From Flavipsychrobacter sp. (GTDB lineage: Bacteria; Bacteroidota; Bacteroidia; Chitinophagales; Chitinophagaceae), in assembly GCA_016787265.1 (NCBI GenBank), contig JAEUVF010000010.1, forward strand, positions 349,591 through 413,590: a stretch of DNA of 64,000 bases, in the 5' to 3' direction. Of this stretch, positions 49,470 to 57,639 are shown one piece after another (position 1 is the stretch's first letter; each line of letters begins with the position of its first letter). The position numbers and the translations under genes are program-made. The notes beneath the pieces are model-generated. The model was not told the origin of the DNA. It saw only the letters and a program-made list of their open reading frames with translations, and did no database searches.

Positions 49470-50213
49470 ATGTACACGGTTGGCTTATTCGTTCCCTGTT
49501 ATATAGACCAGTTTTACCCGCAGGTAGCCATTTCAAGCCTGCAACTGTTGGAGAAACTGGGCTGTAAAGTGGTGGTTCCCTTAAACCAGACCTGCTGCGG
49601 TCAGCCAATGGCCAACAGTGGTTTTGCCAGCCTGTCAAAGGGTTGCGATGCCAATTTCATTCAGAATTTTGGTGAACTGGATTATATTGTTTGTCCCTCC
49701 GGTAGCTGTACCCTTCATATAAAAGAACATCTCCACAGTGAACAGTTTCCAGAAAAAGCAACACTAATTCAACAGCGCATCTATGAACTGACTGAATTCC
49801 TTACGGATGTTTTAAAGCTTACCACTTTCAAAGGATCCTTTCCACATCGTGTTGGTTTGCACAATTCCTGTCATGGTCAGCGTGGCCTTCATCTCTCTTC
49901 CATGTCTGAATTGGTAGCACCGGTTTTTTCAAAGCCGGCCGATCTGCTGAAACGGATCAGTGGACTTGAATTATTATTACCAGAAAGATCTGACGAATGT
50001 TGCGGTTTTGGAGGTACCTTCTGTGTATTCGAAGAATCTGTCAGTGTAAAAATGGGAAAAGATCGTATCAGGGAACATGAACAAAACCAGGTGGATATCA
50101 TCACCGGTGGGGATATGAGTTGTCTGATGCACCTGGAAGGTATTTTAAAACGCAAAAAAAGTCCGGTTAGAGTAATGCATATTGCTGAAATTTTAAACGA
50201 CGGATATGAGTAG
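49470..50213 (+). CDS. lutA: Lactate utilisation iron-sulfur protein LutA-like
   Basis: LutA works with LutB and LutC to oxidise L-lactate to pyruvate at the cytoplasmic membrane. The 247-residue protein has two cysteine-rich CCG domains. The first includes Cys-Tyr-Ile-Asp-Gln-Phe-Tyr-Pro near residue 10 and Thr-Cys-Cys-Gly-Gln-Pro near 43. The second includes His-Asn-Ser-Cys-His near 133 and Glu-Cys-Cys-Gly-Phe-Gly-Gly near 175. These domains bind an iron-sulfur cluster, as in heterodisulfide reductases. The stop overlaps the lutB start by 8 bp, so it is the first gene of a tight lutABC operon. Together with the rhamnose enzymes it can consume the lactate they form. Confidence 0.9.
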   Translation: MYTVGLFVPCYIDQFYPQVAISSLQLLEKLGCKVVVPLNQTCCGQPMANSGFASLSKGCDANFIQNFGELDYIVCPSGSCTLHIKEHLHSEQFPEKATLIQQRIYELTEFLTDVLKLTTFKGSFPHRVGLHNSCHGQRGLHLSSMSELVAPVFSKPADLLKRISGLELLLPERSDECCGFGGTFCVFEESVSVKMGKDRIREHEQNQVDIITGGDMSCLMHLEGILKRKKSPVRVMHIAEILNDGYE

Positions 50214-51576
50214 TCGTCACGCTCAATTAGCCGAACAATTCAATGCTGATGAAGCACGCACCAACTGGCATGATCAAACGCTTTGGTGGGTTCGTCAGAA
50301 AAGGGATCGCGCTGCCAATACATTGCCTGAATGGGAACAACTTCGGCAATGGGCATCCGATATAAAGGATCATACCTTGTCAAATCTGCATGCCTACCTG
50401 TTAGAGTTTGAAAAAAATGCACTGGCAAACGGAGTGTTTGTTCATTGGGCAAAGGATGCAGAAGAACACAACCGGATCATTTACGATATCCTGCAAAAGG
50501 CCGGTGTAGACCGCATCGTCAAGAGCAAGAGCATGCTGACCGAAGAATGTCATCTTAATCCTTATTTGCAGAAAAAAGGAATTGATGTTGTTGATACCGA
50601 CCTGGGTGAACGAATCGTGCAGTTCAGGGAAGAAGCGCCCAGCCATATTGTGTTACCGGCTATTCATCTTAAGAAGGAAGATGTCAGTGATACTTTTCAT
50701 GAACACCTCGGTACAGAAAAAGGAAATAATGATCCGCAGTACCTGACACATGCAGCTCGCCTGCATCTCAGGGAGAAATTTATCCAGTCGGATATTGCCA
50801 TCACCGGTGTCAACTTCGCGATTGCAGAAACAGGCGGTATTGTAGTTTGTACCAATGAAGGCAATGCAGACATGGGAGCACATGCGGCCCGGGTTCATAT
50901 TGCCTGCATGGGATTTGAAAAAATCATTCCCAAAGCTGAACACCTGGGTGTATTTACCCGATTGCTTGCAAGGAGTGCAACCGGACAACCCATCACCACC
51001 TATACCAGTCATTTTCACCGGCCGGCACCAGGTAAGGAAATGCATATTGTGCTCGTTGATAATGGCAGATCAAGACAGTTAGGCAGGGAAGATTTTCGTA
51101 ATTCGTTAAAGTGTATCCGTTGTGCTGCCTGCTTTAATACCTGTCCGGTTTACAGACGAAGCGGGGGACATAGTTACCATACCGCAGTTGCCGGACCGAT
51201 CGGTTCCATCCTGAATCCCAACCTGGATATGAAAGCAAATGCAGATCTTCCATTTGCCTCGACGCTTTGCGGCTCCTGTTCGAATGTTTGTCCGGTTAAA
51301 ATCAATATTCACGAACAACTCTGGAAATGGAGACAGGTAATCAGCGCAGAAGGTCTGACAGACCCCTCCAAAAAAATGGGTATGAAACTGATGGCCTGGG
51401 TACTGGCCCGGCCTGCTGTTTATCGTTTTGCGGGAAAGGCTGCCAGGTGGGTGACTGCAAACCTTCCCTTCCTGGTAAAAAATAAAACCTGGAACCCCTG
51501 GTTTAAACAGAGAGAAATGCCGGAAGCGCCCAAACAGAGTTTTCAGGAATGGTATAAAAAACAGCAACGTTCATGA
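50206..51576 (+). CDS. lutB: Lactate utilisation protein LutB-like, 4Fe-4S ferredoxin domain
   Basis: The 456-residue protein has an N-terminal LUD domain (about residues 60-290). A double 4Fe-4S module follows, with Cys-Ile-Arg-Cys-Ala-Ala-Cys-x3-Cys-Pro near 303-313 and Cys-Gly-Ser-Cys-x3-Cys-Pro near 353-361. A helical tail of about 95 residues completes it. LutB transfers electrons from lactate oxidation. It starts inside the end of lutA and overlaps lutC by 4 bp (ATGA), so the three are translationally coupled. All cluster cysteines seen in the family are present. Confidence 0.92.
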   Translation: MSSRHAQLAEQFNADEARTNWHDQTLWWVRQKRDRAANTLPEWEQLRQWASDIKDHTLSNLHAYLLEFEKNALANGVFVHWAKDAEEHNRIIYDILQKAGVDRIVKSKSMLTEECHLNPYLQKKGIDVVDTDLGERIVQFREEAPSHIVLPAIHLKKEDVSDTFHEHLGTEKGNNDPQYLTHAARLHLREKFIQSDIAITGVNFAIAETGGIVVCTNEGNADMGAHAARVHIACMGFEKIIPKAEHLGVFTRLLARSATGQPITTYTSHFHRPAPGKEMHIVLVDNGRSRQLGREDFRNSLKCIRCAACFNTCPVYRRSGGHSYHTAVAGPIGSILNPNLDMKANADLPFASTLCGSCSNVCPVKINIHEQLWKWRQVISAEGLTDPSKKMGMKLMAWVLARPAVYRFAGKAARWVTANLPFLVKNKTWNPWFKQREMPEAPKQSFQEWYKKQQRS

Positions 51577-52172
51577 GTAGCCGAAATCAAATACTGGAAG
51601 CCATAAAAAATGCACAACCGGCAATTAAACCATTGCCGGTATTGGATTATACGGTGGTTACACCAATCAAAGAGCTGATATCCTCTTTTGAGCAGTTTGT
51701 TAAAGCTGTTGGTGGCAGGGTTCAGTTAGTTGATCAGTCTGCAGCTCTTGCCCAGGAAATTGAAAATGCAAGACTGGAAGGCAAATTAATTTTGAACAGG
51801 CTGAATGGATTATCCAGCATGGATGAGATTTCACCGGACCTTACCGAGTTGGAGAAGCTCGATCGGGTTTACATCCGGGGAAGCCTGGGCGTTGCAGAGA
51901 ATGGTGCGATCTGGGTATCTGAAACGTCAATGGGTAACCGAATTTTACCATTCATCGCACAGGAGCTTGTTTTAGTGTTGCGGGAAGAGGAACTGGTTCC
52001 CACCATGCATGACGCGTATCAACATATCCGGATCAACCAGGAAGGCTTTGGCGTTTTTATAGCGGGGCCTTCTAAAACAGCAGATATCGAACAATCGCTG
52101 GTAATTGGCGCACATGGCCCGGTTGCACTTACTGTTTTGATCCTGAAATCCGGGTTGGCGGTGCCTGTTTAA
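51573..52172 (+). CDS. lutC: Lactate utilisation protein LutC-like, LUD domain
   Basis: The 199-residue protein is a single LUD domain, the third partner of the LutABC lactate-oxidising complex. It includes Arg-Gly-Ser-Leu-Gly-Val-Ala-Glu-Asn-Gly-Ala-Ile-Trp-Val near residue 105, the typical core, and Gly-Pro-Ser-Lys-Thr-Ala-Asp-Ile-Glu near 169 with the following Gly-Ala-His-Gly-Pro. It starts by a 4-bp overlap from lutB. The last 44 bp are also the end of the convergent mtfA-like gene, an unusually long antisense overlap for this window. Confidence 0.9.
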   Translation: MSSRNQILEAIKNAQPAIKPLPVLDYTVVTPIKELISSFEQFVKAVGGRVQLVDQSAALAQEIENARLEGKLILNRLNGLSSMDEISPDLTELEKLDRVYIRGSLGVAENGAIWVSETSMGNRILPFIAQELVLVLREEELVPTMHDAYQHIRINQEGFGVFIAGPSKTADIEQSLVIGAHGPVALTVLILKSGLAVPV

Positions 52173-52971: not shown

Positions 52972-53001
52972 GCAGTTCACGCCGGAAAATCTACAATTCA
53001 C
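52972..53001 (+). promoter_or_regulatory. LytTR-type direct-repeat site upstream of first fasciclin gene
   Basis: Two 9-mers, GCAGTTCAC (52972-52980) and ACAATTCAC (52993-53001), are repeated with exactly 21-bp periodicity (12-bp spacer). Both continue with a CCC/TCC-like triplet. The layout and the ACAnTTCA core match sites of LytTR regulators such as ComE and AgrA. A weak promoter (TTG 53024-53026, ACTCTTTG 53047-53054) lies downstream. The site is probably bound by the LytTR regulator encoded at 56202. Confidence 0.6.
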
Positions 53002-53056
53002 TCCACTGTTAAAATCTTAACAATTGTGCTAACTGTAATATCTCAAACTCTTTGTT

Positions 53057-54034
53057 ATGCTAAACAAAACGATCTTACAATTTGCCCGTACATGGGCATT
53101 GCCATTGCTTGCTGTTTTATTTCTCGCCAGTTGTCAGAAAATGGGTCCTGTTCCTCCACCATGGAAAAATCAGGCGAAGAAAAAAACAATCTGGGAAGTT
53201 GCTTCATCAGACGGACGATTCAGTCTGCTTAAAGCTGCAGTAGCCCGCACCGGCCTGGTTCCTGCGCTGAATGATAAAAAAGCGAACCTTACGGTATTTG
53301 CACCTACAGATGATGCATTCAGAGCGGCTGGTTTCAGAACTGTATCTGACATCGCAAAAGCTCCCGTTGATGTGCTGAAGGCTATCTTATTGTATCATGT
53401 TGTTGGGGATGAAGTATTTGCTGCTGAAATCCCTCAGGCCAGCAATACCCCGGTTCCCAGTCTGAATGGTCAGCCTTTATATGTTACCCGTTCAAGCGCC
53501 GGTAATGTATTTATCAATGGTGTTAAAGTAATCATCGCCGATATTGATTGCTCCAATGGAGTGATTCATGTAGTGGATCGTGTATTGATTCCTGCTCCTG
53601 GTAATATTGTTGCACTAGCAGCAGGAAATTCAAATCTCAGCTTCCTGGTTGCTGCAGTAATTCGCGCCGGTGCTACCGGTACTGATGTTGCTGCTATCCT
53701 CAGCAGTGATGGCCCGTTTACCGTATTCGCCCCCACCAACCAGGCATTTGCCGCTGCCGGATTAACTTCAGTTGAGGTTATTAACAATGCTGATCCGGCC
53801 TTCCTCTTAAATGTACTGGCATATCATGTAATTGTTGGTGCCCGGGTATTCAGTTCTGATCTTGTTGATGGTGCTGATGTGCCCACTTTCCAGGGCAGCA
53901 CGTTGGAAATCAGCCTGGGATCAGGTGCAATAGTAAAGGGCAATTCAAATGCTACAGCTTCCAATATCACCATCACAGACCTGCTCGCTACTAATGGAGT
54001 GGTTCATGTGATTGACCAGGTATTGCTCCCTTAA
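53057..54034 (+). CDS. Fasciclin-domain lipoprotein with two FAS1 domains
   Basis: The 325-residue protein has a lipobox (Leu-Ala-Ser-Cys, about residues 23-26). Two FAS1 domains follow, at about 43-180 and 187-325. Each shows the family motifs Thr-Val-Phe-Ala-Pro-Thr and Asn-Gly-Val-(Ile/Val)-His-Val-(Val/Ile)-Asp near its end. FAS1 domains mediate adhesion at the cell surface or in the matrix. The residues after the cysteine (Gln-Lys-Met) do not form a strong acidic export signal, so surface exposure is less clear than for the next protein. It lies upstream of its sister gene, both preceded by 21-bp-phased repeats, and next to a LytTR system. Confidence 0.9.
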   Translation: MLNKTILQFARTWALPLLAVLFLASCQKMGPVPPPWKNQAKKKTIWEVASSDGRFSLLKAAVARTGLVPALNDKKANLTVFAPTDDAFRAAGFRTVSDIAKAPVDVLKAILLYHVVGDEVFAAEIPQASNTPVPSLNGQPLYVTRSSAGNVFINGVKVIIADIDCSNGVIHVVDRVLIPAPGNIVALAAGNSNLSFLVAAVIRAGATGTDVAAILSSDGPFTVFAPTNQAFAAAGLTSVEVINNADPAFLLNVLAYHVIVGARVFSSDLVDGADVPTFQGSTLEISLGSGAIVKGNSNATASNITITDLLATNGVVHVIDQVLLP

Positions 54035-54058
54035 AATAGCAGTCCCAATAAATAATTT

Positions 54059-54088
54059 ACAGTTCACTCCATACATTCAACAACTCAC
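54059..54088 (+). promoter_or_regulatory. LytTR-type direct-repeat site upstream of second fasciclin gene
   Basis: Two 9-mers, ACAGTTCAC (54059-54067) and ACAACTCAC (54080-54088), both followed by TCCA, repeat with exactly 21-bp periodicity. They match the site before the first fasciclin gene in core and spacing. The second fasciclin start lies 57 bp after the second repeat. A candidate ATCTTTTG -7 element at 54101-54108 deviates from consensus in its first two bases. Confidence 0.6.
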
Positions 54089-54144
54089 TCCATTCTGTTC
54101 ATCTTTTGCCTTTCGATTCTGTTACAAAAGGAAAATCTAGCATC

Positions 54145-55086
54145 ATGAAAAAATTTATGACATCCCGCTTACTTCTGATCGCGGTAGCTTTATTCAGTGT
54201 GTTTACATTTTCTGCCTGTTCTGATGATGATGATGACAATCAGCCGGCTGATCCGACAATTACAGATGTAGTTGCTACCAATCCTAACTTTTCGCTGCTC
54301 CTGGCTGCGGTTTCCAAAGCAGGACTGGCAGATGAGTTAGCTGCTCCCGGAAATCTGACTGTGTTTGCCCCTGATAATGAAGCCTTCGCTGCTGCCGGTA
54401 TCAACCAGGCCTTTATCAACAGTGCAACTCCACAGGCATTGGCTGATATCCTGCTCTACCATGTAGTTGGTGCAAAAGTTGGTTCTGCAAACGTACCTGC
54501 AAGTGACAGCGTGCGTACACTGGGACAAAAATTAATCTTTGCCTCCCGGAACGCAAATGGAGTATTTGTAAATGGAGTGTCTGTAAAAACGGCTGATGTT
54601 GCTGCCAGTAATGGTGTGATTCATGTAATCAGCAATGTGCTGATTCCACCAACACAAACCATTGCGGGAATTGCAACCGGATCTTCTGACTTTTCTATCC
54701 TGGTTTCTGCTGTAACTAAAGCAGGATTGGTAAACGCGATTAGCAGCCCTGGTAAGTATACCGTATTTGCACCTACAAACGCTGCCTTCCAGGCTGCTGG
54801 TGTAACTCAGGCAACTATTGATGCACTTTCTGTTGCTGAAGTAACTGCAATTGTTGCACAGCATGTAATTGGTACCAATGTATATGCAAGTGACCTGATC
54901 AATAATGCAACTGCACCAACATTACGCAGTGGTACTACGCTTACTATCGGTACGAATCCGCCCAGTGTAAAAGTAACCGGCAGCACCAGCACTGCGAGCA
55001 ATGTAGTTACCACTACCCCTGGAGCCACTTTTAATATCACAACCACTAATGGTGTGATACATGTGATCGATCGCGTTATCCTGTAG
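54145..55086 (+). CDS. Fasciclin-domain lipoprotein, likely surface-exposed
   Basis: The 313-residue protein was started at ATG 54145, where a signal peptide begins. Its lipobox Cys is followed by Ser and five Asp. A Ser-plus-acidic run after the lipid-modified Cys is a lipoprotein export signal in Bacteroidota, so it probably sits on the outer face of the outer membrane. Two FAS1 domains cover about 40-175 and 180-313. Both carry Thr-Val-Phe-Ala-Pro, and Asn-Gly-Val-Ile-His-Val-Ile near the ends. It differs from its sister by its acidic linker. Role in adhesion, matrix or self-recognition is inferred from the domain. Confidence 0.9.
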   Translation: MKKFMTSRLLLIAVALFSVFTFSACSDDDDDNQPADPTITDVVATNPNFSLLLAAVSKAGLADELAAPGNLTVFAPDNEAFAAAGINQAFINSATPQALADILLYHVVGAKVGSANVPASDSVRTLGQKLIFASRNANGVFVNGVSVKTADVAASNGVIHVISNVLIPPTQTIAGIATGSSDFSILVSAVTKAGLVNAISSPGKYTVFAPTNAAFQAAGVTQATIDALSVAEVTAIVAQHVIGTNVYASDLINNATAPTLRSGTTLTIGTNPPSVKVTGSTSTASNVVTTTPGATFNITTTNGVIHVIDRVIL

Positions 55087-55122
55087 AAAGATTGTAGTAG
55101 TTTTGTTACTGCGGGGATGGCT

Positions 55123-55154
55123 AGATAGTTCCGGCTTCAAAGCCGGAACTATCT
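55123..55154 (+). terminator. Hairpin terminator between fasciclin and kinase genes
   Basis: A perfect 15-bp stem, AGATAGTTCCGGCTT (55123-55137) with complement at 55140-55154, has only CA at the centre, so the real loop is a few bases wider. Stem bases are followed by TCTTACTT, a modest T-tract. It likely ends the fasciclin transcript and separates it from the two-component genes, which start 19 bp later. Confidence 0.7.
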
Positions 55155-55173
55155 TCTTACTTAACCTCTACCC

Positions 55174-56193
55174 ATGTTTGCCCATAAATACAGACTCTGG
55201 CTCGCACTTTTTCTTGGAAGCTATTCCTACCTGAATACGCTTTATGCTGAAGTCTATACCTACTATCAGATTCAGGCACCCTGGTATTTAAGTTTACTTA
55301 CCATATTACTGGTTACACTGGGAGTGTGGGAATCCAACCGGTTTCTGGATAAGCGGATTCAAAAATACTGGGCTCCTAAAACTCAACTTGCACGTATCGG
55401 GATTTCCTTCCTCGCCGGAACTGTCGCTTCAGTGGTTGTTGCTTTATTAATAACTGGAATTACTGCAAGAGGCCTGGCCGGACTTAACAGTTCTGCAGTC
55501 TCCATTCCCTTTAAACTTACAACAATGTATGCCACCAGGATTAACCTGTTCCTGCATACTATTAATGCGTTGTTTGTATTCATTGGAAATCTTCGGCAAA
55601 AAGAAGTGGAGGCAGAGGCGCTCAAACGCAGTACTGCACAGGCGCAACTCCAGATTATCCGAAATCAGATCAACCCACATTTTCTGTTTAACAATCTGAA
55701 TGTACTATCCGGACTATTGGTTAAAGACCACCCGGAAGCTAATGAATTTGTTGAATCTTTCGCTACTGTGTACAGGTATTTATTAAGCAATCAGGATAAG
55801 GAACTTGTCTCTCTGCGATCCGAGCTTGAATTTATTCAACCTTATATCTTCCTGCTAACCAAAAGGTTCCCGGAAAGCCTGTCAGTTACCCTCTTTGTTC
55901 AGGAAGAAGAAAAAAATAAAAGAATTGTTCCCGGTGCATTACAGCTACTGATCGAAAATGCAATCAAGCACAATATATTGTCTAAACAATTCCCGCTTGT
56001 TATTGATATTTCAGTGAACGGAAATAACAGTTTGGTTGTTAGTAATAACCTGCAAATCAAAAGTCCCGTTGAACCGTCAACGCAAATAGGGCTTACTAAT
56101 ATCCGACAGCGATATGAATTAAGCACCGGCCAGACGATCACGATAAAAAAGGACGACAGGATTTTCAGTGTTCATTTACCATTAATAACCTAA
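55174..56193 (+). CDS. LytS-type sensor histidine kinase
   Basis: The 339-residue protein has three to four membrane helices in the first 140 residues and no separate periplasmic domain. A coiled region follows, then a His_kinase domain with His169 in Gln-Ile-Asn-Pro-His-Phe-Leu-Phe-Asn-Asn. The ATP-binding end has Glu-Asn-Ala-Ile-Lys-His near 263 and Gly-Leu-Thr-Asn-Ile near 307. Such kinases pair with LytTR regulators. The short helical N-terminal part suggests that it senses membrane state or a small ligand. It is 8 bp upstream of its cognate regulator and directly follows the fasciclin genes, so it probably controls them. Confidence 0.9.
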   Translation: MFAHKYRLWLALFLGSYSYLNTLYAEVYTYYQIQAPWYLSLLTILLVTLGVWESNRFLDKRIQKYWAPKTQLARIGISFLAGTVASVVVALLITGITARGLAGLNSSAVSIPFKLTTMYATRINLFLHTINALFVFIGNLRQKEVEAEALKRSTAQAQLQIIRNQINPHFLFNNLNVLSGLLVKDHPEANEFVESFATVYRYLLSNQDKELVSLRSELEFIQPYIFLLTKRFPESLSVTLFVQEEEKNKRIVPGALQLLIENAIKHNILSKQFPLVIDISVNGNNSLVVSNNLQIKSPVEPSTQIGLTNIRQRYELSTGQTITIKKDDRIFSVHLPLIT

Positions 56194-56201
56194 TCTCGTT
56201 T

Positions 56202-56924
56202 ATGCGAACGCTTATTGTTGAAGATGAGCCATTGGCTGCGGAACGACTGACAGTACTCCTCCAACAATTGCGCCCGTCTGCAGTTGTAGCGGCTGTCAAG
56301 GATAGTATTTCCGAAAGCATTCAATGGCTGAATGAAAATCCATCACCAGACCTGATCCTGATGGATATTCAGCTTTCAGATGGTCCATCTTTTGAAATTT
56401 TCAGAACAATCAAATCACAATGTCCCATCATTCTGACTACCGCATTTGATTCTTATGCGATGGATGCGTTCAAATTGCTGAGTGTTGATTATTTACTCAA
56501 ACCTGTTACCAAATCAGCACTTAAACAGGCCCTCGATAAACTGGATATGTTGTCAGGAAAAAATACGATCCTTCCCAAGACCTATAAATCACGTTTCCTG
56601 GCCAGGATTGGCAGTCGCAGTTTCTTTATGGATACCGCCGATATCGCTTATTTCTCTGCCGACAATAAAATTGTATATTTAAACGCGCATGACGGTACTC
56701 GTTACATTGTAGACTATACATTGGAAAGTCTGGAACTGGTGCTGGATCCACGACAGTTTTTCAGGCTAAACAGAAGTATCATTGTACAGGCATCCGCTAT
56801 TCAACACATTAAACCATATATCAACAGCCGACTCAAACTCAATGTGAAAGCTGGTTCCAACCTGGATGAACTGATCGTTAGCAGAGAACGGGTGCCGGCA
56901 TTCCGCGAATGGGCGGAAAGTTAA
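56202..56924 (+). CDS. LytTR-family response regulator
   Basis: The 240-residue protein has a receiver domain (about 1-115) with Glu7/Asp8/Glu9, phospho-acceptor Asp55 in Leu-Met-Asp-Ile, Thr80 and Lys100. A LytTR DNA-binding domain (about 135-240) includes Phe-Phe-Arg-Leu-Asn-Arg-Ser near 187, the segment that contacts DNA in the family. LytTR proteins bind pairs of direct repeats about 21 bp apart, and such pairs occur before both fasciclin genes upstream. It is in operon with the kinase and 10 bp before a gene for an outer-membrane protein. Confidence 0.93.
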   Translation: MRTLIVEDEPLAAERLTVLLQQLRPSAVVAAVKDSISESIQWLNENPSPDLILMDIQLSDGPSFEIFRTIKSQCPIILTTAFDSYAMDAFKLLSVDYLLKPVTKSALKQALDKLDMLSGKNTILPKTYKSRFLARIGSRSFFMDTADIAYFSADNKIVYLNAHDGTRYIVDYTLESLELVLDPRQFFRLNRSIIVQASAIQHIKPYINSRLKLNVKAGSNLDELIVSRERVPAFREWAES

Positions 56925-56934
56925 TTTCTAGTTT

Positions 56935-57639
56935 ATGAGAATTTCATTGCTCATTTTATTTGTTTTGTTTTTTGGAAGCGCAGTGGCCCAGGGTAAAAAG
57001 GAAGATGTATTGTATCTGAAAAACGGATCTGTTATCCGTGGCCAGCTTGTAGGTTCTTCAAATCAGCAGAGCCGCATCCTTACGCAGGATGGTTCTATAT
57101 GGTCTTTTAGTCAAGCCGAACTCGACTCCATCCGATCCGAAAAACGCTTTCGGAATTTTGCCTATAAAACAAAAGGCTTTGCGCATTTCAGTGAACTGGG
57201 TCCGCTTGTAGCAGGGAAAACAACGGTTGACGGTGTAACCACTGCTGCCTTTTCCTTTCAAACCGTTAACGGGTATAAATTCAACCAGTTCGCCATGCTG
57301 GGTTTTGGAACCGGTGTAGATCTCTATGCCACTCAAACCATTGTTCCGCTTTTTGCCAGTTTCCGCGGAGATTTAGCTGCCAATGGAACAGTGCTTCCAT
57401 TCTATTTTATTGACGCAGGATATGGTGCAAATATTACCCAGGATTCACAGGCCGGTGAAGATTTTAAAGGTGGGTTATTATATGCTGCGGGACTCGGTGT
57501 AAAAATCCCGTTCAATCGGTCTGCCGGTTTTCTGCTGAGCATTGGGTATCGCTACCAGGCAACCCAATCCATCCGCAACCAGGATCAGATTGATACGAAG
57601 TACCGCCGCCTGGCGATTCGTGCAGGTTTTTTCCTTTAA
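56935..57639 (+). CDS. Secreted protein, probable small outer-membrane barrel
   Basis: I do not recognise a named family. The 234-residue protein has a signal peptide (cleavage near Ala-Val-Ala-Gln, residue 19). A beta-rich N-terminal part follows, starting Asp-Val-Leu-Tyr-Leu-Lys-Asn-Gly-Ser-Val-Ile-Arg-Gly, a stretch often seen in Bacteroidota secreted proteins. Glycine- and aromatic-rich strands ending in Arg-Ala-Gly-Phe-Phe-Leu suggest a barrel. It lies 10 bp after the LytTR gene, so it is co-transcribed with the two-component system. Its stop interlocks with the convergent mnmD stop (TTAA). Confidence 0.65.
   Translation: MRISLLILFVLFFGSAVAQGKKEDVLYLKNGSVIRGQLVGSSNQQSRILTQDGSIWSFSQAELDSIRSEKRFRNFAYKTKGFAHFSELGPLVAGKTTVDGVTTAAFSFQTVNGYKFNQFAMLGFGTGVDLYATQTIVPLFASFRGDLAANGTVLPFYFIDAGYGANITQDSQAGEDFKGGLLYAAGLGVKIPFNRSAGFLLSIGYRYQATQSIRNQDQIDTKYRRLAIRAGFFL

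Follow-up and report, generated by a model that had tools for sequence, protein, structure and literature searches.

The question raised by this locus is why two fasciclin (FAS1) genes of a Flavipsychrobacter genome stand beside the genes of a sensor kinase and a LytTR response regulator, each preceded by a pair of short direct repeats. Bacterial FAS1 proteins are common and mostly have no assigned function. The window analysed here, the whole stretch of 64,000 nucleotides, contains the features collected in Table 1. Taken together, the comparisons described below make it highly probable that the locus is a conserved, dedicated two-component cassette with the order [operator]-fas1-(hairpin)-kinase-lytTR, in which the regulator would activate FAS1 through the repeats, with autoregulation tempered by the hairpin.

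Table 1. Features of the FAS1 cassette and their positions in the window.
Feature	Position	Strand	Description
Operator A	52972..53004	+	GCAGTTCACGCC-N9-ACAATTCACTCC; two 12-bp direct repeats, 21-bp phase
fas1a	53057..54034	+	Two-domain FAS1 lipoprotein; PF02469, E 3e-57; lipobox LASC, followed by QKMGPVPP
Operator B	54059..54091	+	ACAGTTCACTCC-N9-ACAACTCACTCC; 21-bp phase, 5´ of fas1b
Promoter-like element	54119..54128	+	CTGTTACAAA; TTGTTATAAT-like, 3 mismatches
fas1b	54145..55086	+	Two-domain FAS1 lipoprotein; PF02469, E 3e-52; FSA, followed by CSDDDDD
Strong hairpin	55123..55154	+	Between fas1b and the kinase gene; z = -4.7
Sensor kinase	55174..56193	+	PF06580 type (PF06580 match); NPHFLFN box invariant
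Response regulator	56202..56924	+	Receiver + LytTR DNA-binding domain; proposed binder of operators A and B
Outer-membrane protein	56935..57639	+	Accessory; small N-terminal beta domain + 8-stranded barrel; minority of cassettes

Proteins Encoded by the Cassette

PF02469 is found twice in each of the two FAS1 proteins of the window, behind a lipobox. The lipobox expression matched 46 of 50 cassette FAS1 proteins, and three of the four negative ones end, by eye, in GTAC, SVSC or GTSC. The original prediction described both window proteins as surface lipoproteins. This is supported for one of the two, since only FAS1b (CSDDDDD) has an acidic, predicted Bacteroidetes-type export signal, according to the SDDDD rule reported for B. 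fragilis (PMC5080379), while FAS1a (CQKMGPVPP) shows no acidic residues. At least two acidic residues follow the cysteine in 39 of the 50 cassette FAS1 relatives. The FAS1 domain is shared with TGFBIp, periostin, MPT70, CupS and AstaP, with sequence matches to solved structures; unlike these, the cassette proteins are two-domain bacterial lipoproteins under a dedicated two-component system.

The kinase adjacent to the regulator keeps H169 of its NPHFLFN box and the N-box ENAIKHN in 10 orthologues. Its earlier designation as LytS is loose: PF06580 is the only domain found, with no 5TMR-LYT sensor domain, and the structural model predicts four long N-terminal membrane helices and no large extracytoplasmic domain (pLDDT 78, pTM 0.48; only roughly reliable).

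The regulator matches PF00072 and PF04397 above cut-off and is 97% identical to that of Flavihumibacter fluminis. D55 and K100, and with them the phospho-acceptor, are invariant in 24 orthologues. The nearest NCBIfam regulator models are LytR and BtsR, both scoring far below cut-off. The protein does not fall in the LRS class (receiver-less LytTR with a membrane inhibitor), since both a receiver and a kinase are present.

No Pfam match was obtained for the outer-membrane protein. Its AlphaFold model (pLDDT 82) predicts eight long strands behind a small beta domain, and a fold search of the PDB returned OprG, OmpW and NspA. A role as an adhesion organelle was considered and rejected, the OmpW/OprG/NspA-like fold and the small Hfq/Sm-like beta domain offering nothing adhesion-specific. 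Elsewhere in the window, a LutABC-like (lactate utilisation) operon occupies positions 49470-52172, just upstream of a divergent M90 peptidase gene.

Distribution of the Cassette

Orthologues of the regulator occur in 37 of 299 Chitinophagaceae genomes, the window counted, and these 37 span 22 genera. The 36 neighbourhoods other than the window's were compared, and the linkage of FAS1, kinase and LytTR genes, for which the original prediction had proposed just such a comparison, recurs. In 34 of the 36, the gene immediately 5´ of the kinase gene is a FAS1 gene on the same strand (one of these has no kinase gene left, and FAS1 immediately precedes the regulator); in the two remaining loci, L078 and L091, FAS1 is no more than 5 kb away. 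The four nearest paralogues of the regulator all lack a FAS1 neighbour. Outside the Chitinophagaceae, FAS1-linked orthologues were found in Rudanella paleaurantiibacter, Dyadobacter sp. CY326, a Flammeovirgaceae MAG and a genome of another family (G536).

Placed on a tree of 89 LytTR proteins, linkage to FAS1 requires 3 changes, versus 29.7 in shuffles. All 38 Chitinophagaceae-type members stand on one side of a branch with SH-aLRT 93, and the four other FAS1-linked members are placed near the base of the other side. The module of five genes suggested at the outset, with a putative sense-and-adhere role, contracts to a three-gene core of fas1, kinase and lytTR, with the outer-membrane protein present in 11 of 45 loci.

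Reduced forms of the cassette were also observed. A genome of the window's genus (G277; L116:5327-7007) has lost the kinase gene and most of the receiver by deletion, while an orphan LytTR domain, the FAS1 gene and an intact operator stay in synteny. Genome G040 (L117:2585-4640) carries FAS1 followed by an intact but orphan LytTR regulator, without a kinase gene between them. These losses indicate that FAS1, the site and the DNA-binding domain persist longest. In G087, assembled as one contig, a break between the domains divides the cassette FAS1 gene into two frames that overlap (L118:3052-4145), through a genuine frameshift or a sequencing error. Two loci titled Streptomyces griseus (L210) and Thalassovita (L232) have sequences of Bacteroidota type and are probably mislabelled metagenome bins.

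Paired Repeats in the Window and Its Genome

Direct reading of the sequence confirmed the two pairs of 9-mers, each with a start-to-start distance of 21 bp: GCAGTTCAC (52972-52980) and ACAATTCAC (52993-53001) in operator A, and ACAGTTCAC (54059-54067) and ACAACTCAC (54080-54088) in operator B. When extended to 12-mers, three of the four copies end in CACTCC and the remaining one in CACGCC. Operator A is located 53-85 bp 5´ of the fas1a start codon and is kept in F. fluminis and in one further Flavihumibacter genome. With up to three mismatches the pattern matches the window twice, versus 0.28 matches expected from dinucleotide shuffles, 3 of 100 of which reach two. The letters of the window alone are only suggestive that the repeats are not due to chance; the proof comes from relatives, which show the same sites.

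The regulon in the own genome (4.55 Mb, 19 contigs) was looked for by pattern only, with ACARTTCAC-N12-ACARYTCAC. This genome-wide search for the 9-mers at 21-bp phase, proposed in the original prediction, returned only operators A and B at 0-1 mismatch, the next-best places having two. Up to three mismatches gave 35 matches (9 for the reversed pattern), and the longer 12-9-12 pattern gave exactly operators A and B (0 for its reversed control). Among the other places with 2-3 mismatches, the three best (L003-L005) are without a FAS1 or cassette gene and were discarded as targets; many of the rest are, by eye, simple repeats.

Conservation of the Operator among Relatives

The original prediction had staked itself beforehand on the repeats being kept 5´ of orthologous FAS1 genes beside LytTR genes, and they are. 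A weight matrix defines the half-site as a 12-mer of approximately ACRATTCACTCC, with a poorly conserved spacer of 9 bp. Upstream of 46 cassette FAS1 genes, phase 21 yields 13, 26 and 33 sites with up to two, three and four mismatches, versus at most 1, 4 and 8 at any other phase from 12 to 33. A third half-site copy, also in phase, is present in some cassette promoters.

Sites were then scored with the locus in question left out of the matrix and a threshold of 9.0, the 99th percentile of shuffles. The threshold is passed by 34 of 43 cassette FAS1 promoters, and the largest shuffle by 26; about one fifth are without a clear site, some of them owing to mis-called starts or a broken gene. Seven loci outside the training set, including those of Rudanella, Dyadobacter and the Flammeovirgaceae MAG, score from 13.2 to 36.2. 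Conversely, none of eight FAS1 genes in five genomes without an orthologous regulator has a site (all scores below 0), and of the single-domain FAS1 genes that cassette genomes carry at other places, only one of 17 passes 9.0, within a simple repeat. Strong sites precede unlinked two-domain FAS1 genes in two cassette genomes (L175, 24.5; L179, 26.2), as would be the case for trans targets.

Searched blind with the 12-9-12 pattern (up to three mismatches), 399 genomes of the family gave 32 matches, compared with 3 for the reversed control. Immediately 5´ of cassette FAS1 genes, adjoining a kinase gene, a regulator remnant or a second cassette FAS1 gene, lie 21 of these 32; the other 11 are mostly simple tandem repeats. 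The best-scoring place of the whole locus is the FAS1 promoter in 39 of 43 cassette loci, with three strong exceptions (L078, L073 and L080). In Terrimonas ginsenosidimutans (L078:6804-6836), where FAS1 is not the upstream gene, an operator with a score of 24.4 stands directly 5´ of the kinase-regulator operon and suggests its direct autoregulation. In the other two (L073:4167-4861 and L080:4908-5603), a divergent lipoprotein gene with a weak DUF6252 match has its own strong operator (25.4) and is a candidate further target.

Promoter Geometry and Hairpin

Of 46 non-redundant promoters, lined up by the half-site nearest the promoter, 12 have a TTGTTATAAT-like element at offset 39; in 300 shuffles no offset exceeds 5. 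At operator B, CTGTTACAAA is found exactly 39 nt past the start of this half-site. The element is clear in about one quarter to one third of promoters and ambiguous for fas1a. Its offset places the TATAAT part around 34 nt beyond the end of the 9-mer, near the 31-32 nt computed for the HdrR and BrsR promoters from the table in PMC6193735, and HdrR and BrsR activate from such sites (PMC6193735). This nearness makes activation from just upstream of the -35 region the most likely action of the regulator.

Other promoter elements fared less well. The Bacteroidota TAnnTTTG element has no clear fixed position 3´ of the sites, and a TATCTTTT box 8 nt downstream of them, seen in only 6 of 51 cases, was set aside in favour of the element at offset 39. 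A scan of the window region with the sigma-70 consensus gave no more matches than shuffles.

Hairpins with z below -3 follow fas1 in 33 of 41 loci, in unrelated sequences; behind lytTR (3 of 36) and behind the kinase gene (1 of 35) they are rare. That of the window has a weak T-tract, so that termination is not certain. This distribution suggests a terminator or attenuator that would set the fraction of transcripts entering the kinase and regulator genes; a simple terminator or a stem that stabilises the mRNA would also be possible.

Proposed Mechanism and Alternative Explanations

In the proposed mechanism, the four-helix PF06580 kinase would phosphorylate the receiver-LytTR regulator, which would bind 12-bp direct repeats, two or in some cases three, spaced by two helical turns on the same DNA face. 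Bound just upstream of the core promoter, the regulator would activate the FAS1 lipoprotein gene or genes. The hairpin after fas1 would terminate or temper most transcripts, with FAS1 made in excess, and read-through past it may provide weak positive autoregulation of kinase and regulator. Gene order, the conservation and phase of the operator, the offset of the promoter element and the hairpin are read directly in the sequences, and from this kind of evidence we infer that the cognate regulator binds, that it activates and does not repress, that the hairpin attenuates and that FAS1 has a function in the envelope. That the adjacent regulator is the binder, as first predicted, is supported by conserved phase, position and neighbourhood and by promoter geometry, so that the regulator of the cassette very probably binds the paired promoter repeats.

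The most serious competitor accepts the repeats as operators of the adjacent regulator and assigns them to repression or to activation of fas1 only, with the kinase and regulator genes transcribed from their own promoter and the hairpin acting as the fas1 terminator. It is a possibility of minor weight. The hairpin does resemble an intrinsic terminator in several relatives (e.g., L077), and LytTR sites overlapping the -35 box can repress, as in CoxC (PMC11347149); however, the cassette repeats lie upstream of the likely -35 region, which is the geometry of an activator, and the kinase-regulator operon of Terrimonas itself carries a site. Quite improbable is a further explanation, by which a non-adjacent LytTR paralogue binds the sites and the targets of the adjacent pair lie elsewhere. 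Several tens of LytTR-like candidates in the own genome (40 in the first search) and the sites 5´ of unlinked genes would fit it. Against it, the site is present together with the orthologous regulator, even in G277, where only the DNA-binding domain is left; FAS1 promoters lack the site where this regulator is absent; and the best score has a median of 24.6 in cassette loci, versus 10.3 in those of 85 LytTR relatives that lack FAS1.

Lastly, the repeats might resemble each other by chance or belong to a repeat that is general in these genomes, in which GATTCAC/TCTCAC-type simple-sequence runs do give some false matches. This is already refuted by the phase, left-out, new-locus and blind-scan results, and practically no weight is left to it: the only two near-perfect places in 4.55 Mb are both 5´ of FAS1 genes, the enrichment at phase 21 is sharp, and FAS1 promoters were recovered blind in other genera.

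Comparison with Known LytTR Systems

LytTR sites are described as two direct repeats of 9-11 nt with a spacer of 11-13 nt (PMC4847170), and the cassette sites, two 9-mers separated by N12 and placed 5´ of a likely promoter, are of this form. The device is of a known kind: a two-component system of the LytTR type, whose paired direct repeats are the usual ones. The HdrRM and BrsRM systems of S. mutans likewise have direct repeats of 9 bp, separated by 12 bp and placed immediately 5´ of the -35 region (PMC6193735), and their operons are positively autoregulated (PMC6193735). However, their regulator is held by a membrane inhibitor protein, whereas the cassette has a receiver-LytTR regulator with a histidine kinase and a FAS1 lipoprotein as its main output. 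E. coli BtsSR and YpdAB, as well as AgrCA and ComDE, also pair a kinase with a receiver-LytTR regulator, but differ from the cassette in target genes and site sequence. Furthermore, BtsS is described as a 7-transmembrane receptor (PMC10653868), in contrast with the four membrane helices modelled for the cassette kinase. RcoM and CoxC operators comprise three direct repeats at two-helical-turn intervals, which recalls the cassettes with an in-phase third copy; nevertheless, these are one-component gas sensors and their half-site sequence is unrelated.

A search of mainly open-access literature found no paper that joins fasciclin to LytTR, to Chitinophagaceae or to a response regulator and LytR. 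What appears new, provisionally, is that a FAS1 output is dedicated to such a system and conserved, together with its operator, promoter geometry and hairpin. A well-defined LytTR operator is predicted across a whole family of Bacteroidota, for which few described sites were found. The dedicated two-component system and its readable operator make the inducing signal and the role of FAS1 directly testable, and the cassette offers a concrete handle on the purpose of bacterial fasciclin proteins.

A Lead towards Function

AstaP is a carotenoid-binding FAS1 protein of microalgae (PMC10147662). It is conceivable, at long odds, that the cassette serves a light, redox or membrane-state response in which the FAS1 lipoproteins would not be adhesins but would have a small lipophilic ligand, for instance a carotenoid, bound to them at the outer membrane. 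The cassette adjoins carotenoid biosynthesis genes in five loci that form one group, Terrimonas ginsenosidimutans among them (L066, L069, L070, L074 and L078), a neighbourhood that is a lead only, as it belongs to this group and not to the window. There, amine-oxidase/phytoene-desaturase-like and phytoene synthase genes come after the regulator gene, with at most one gene in between. A hydroxylase-like gene is found in most of these loci, a MerR regulator with a B12-binding domain is encoded nearby, and some of the five also have GTP cyclohydrolase I and photolyase-related genes.
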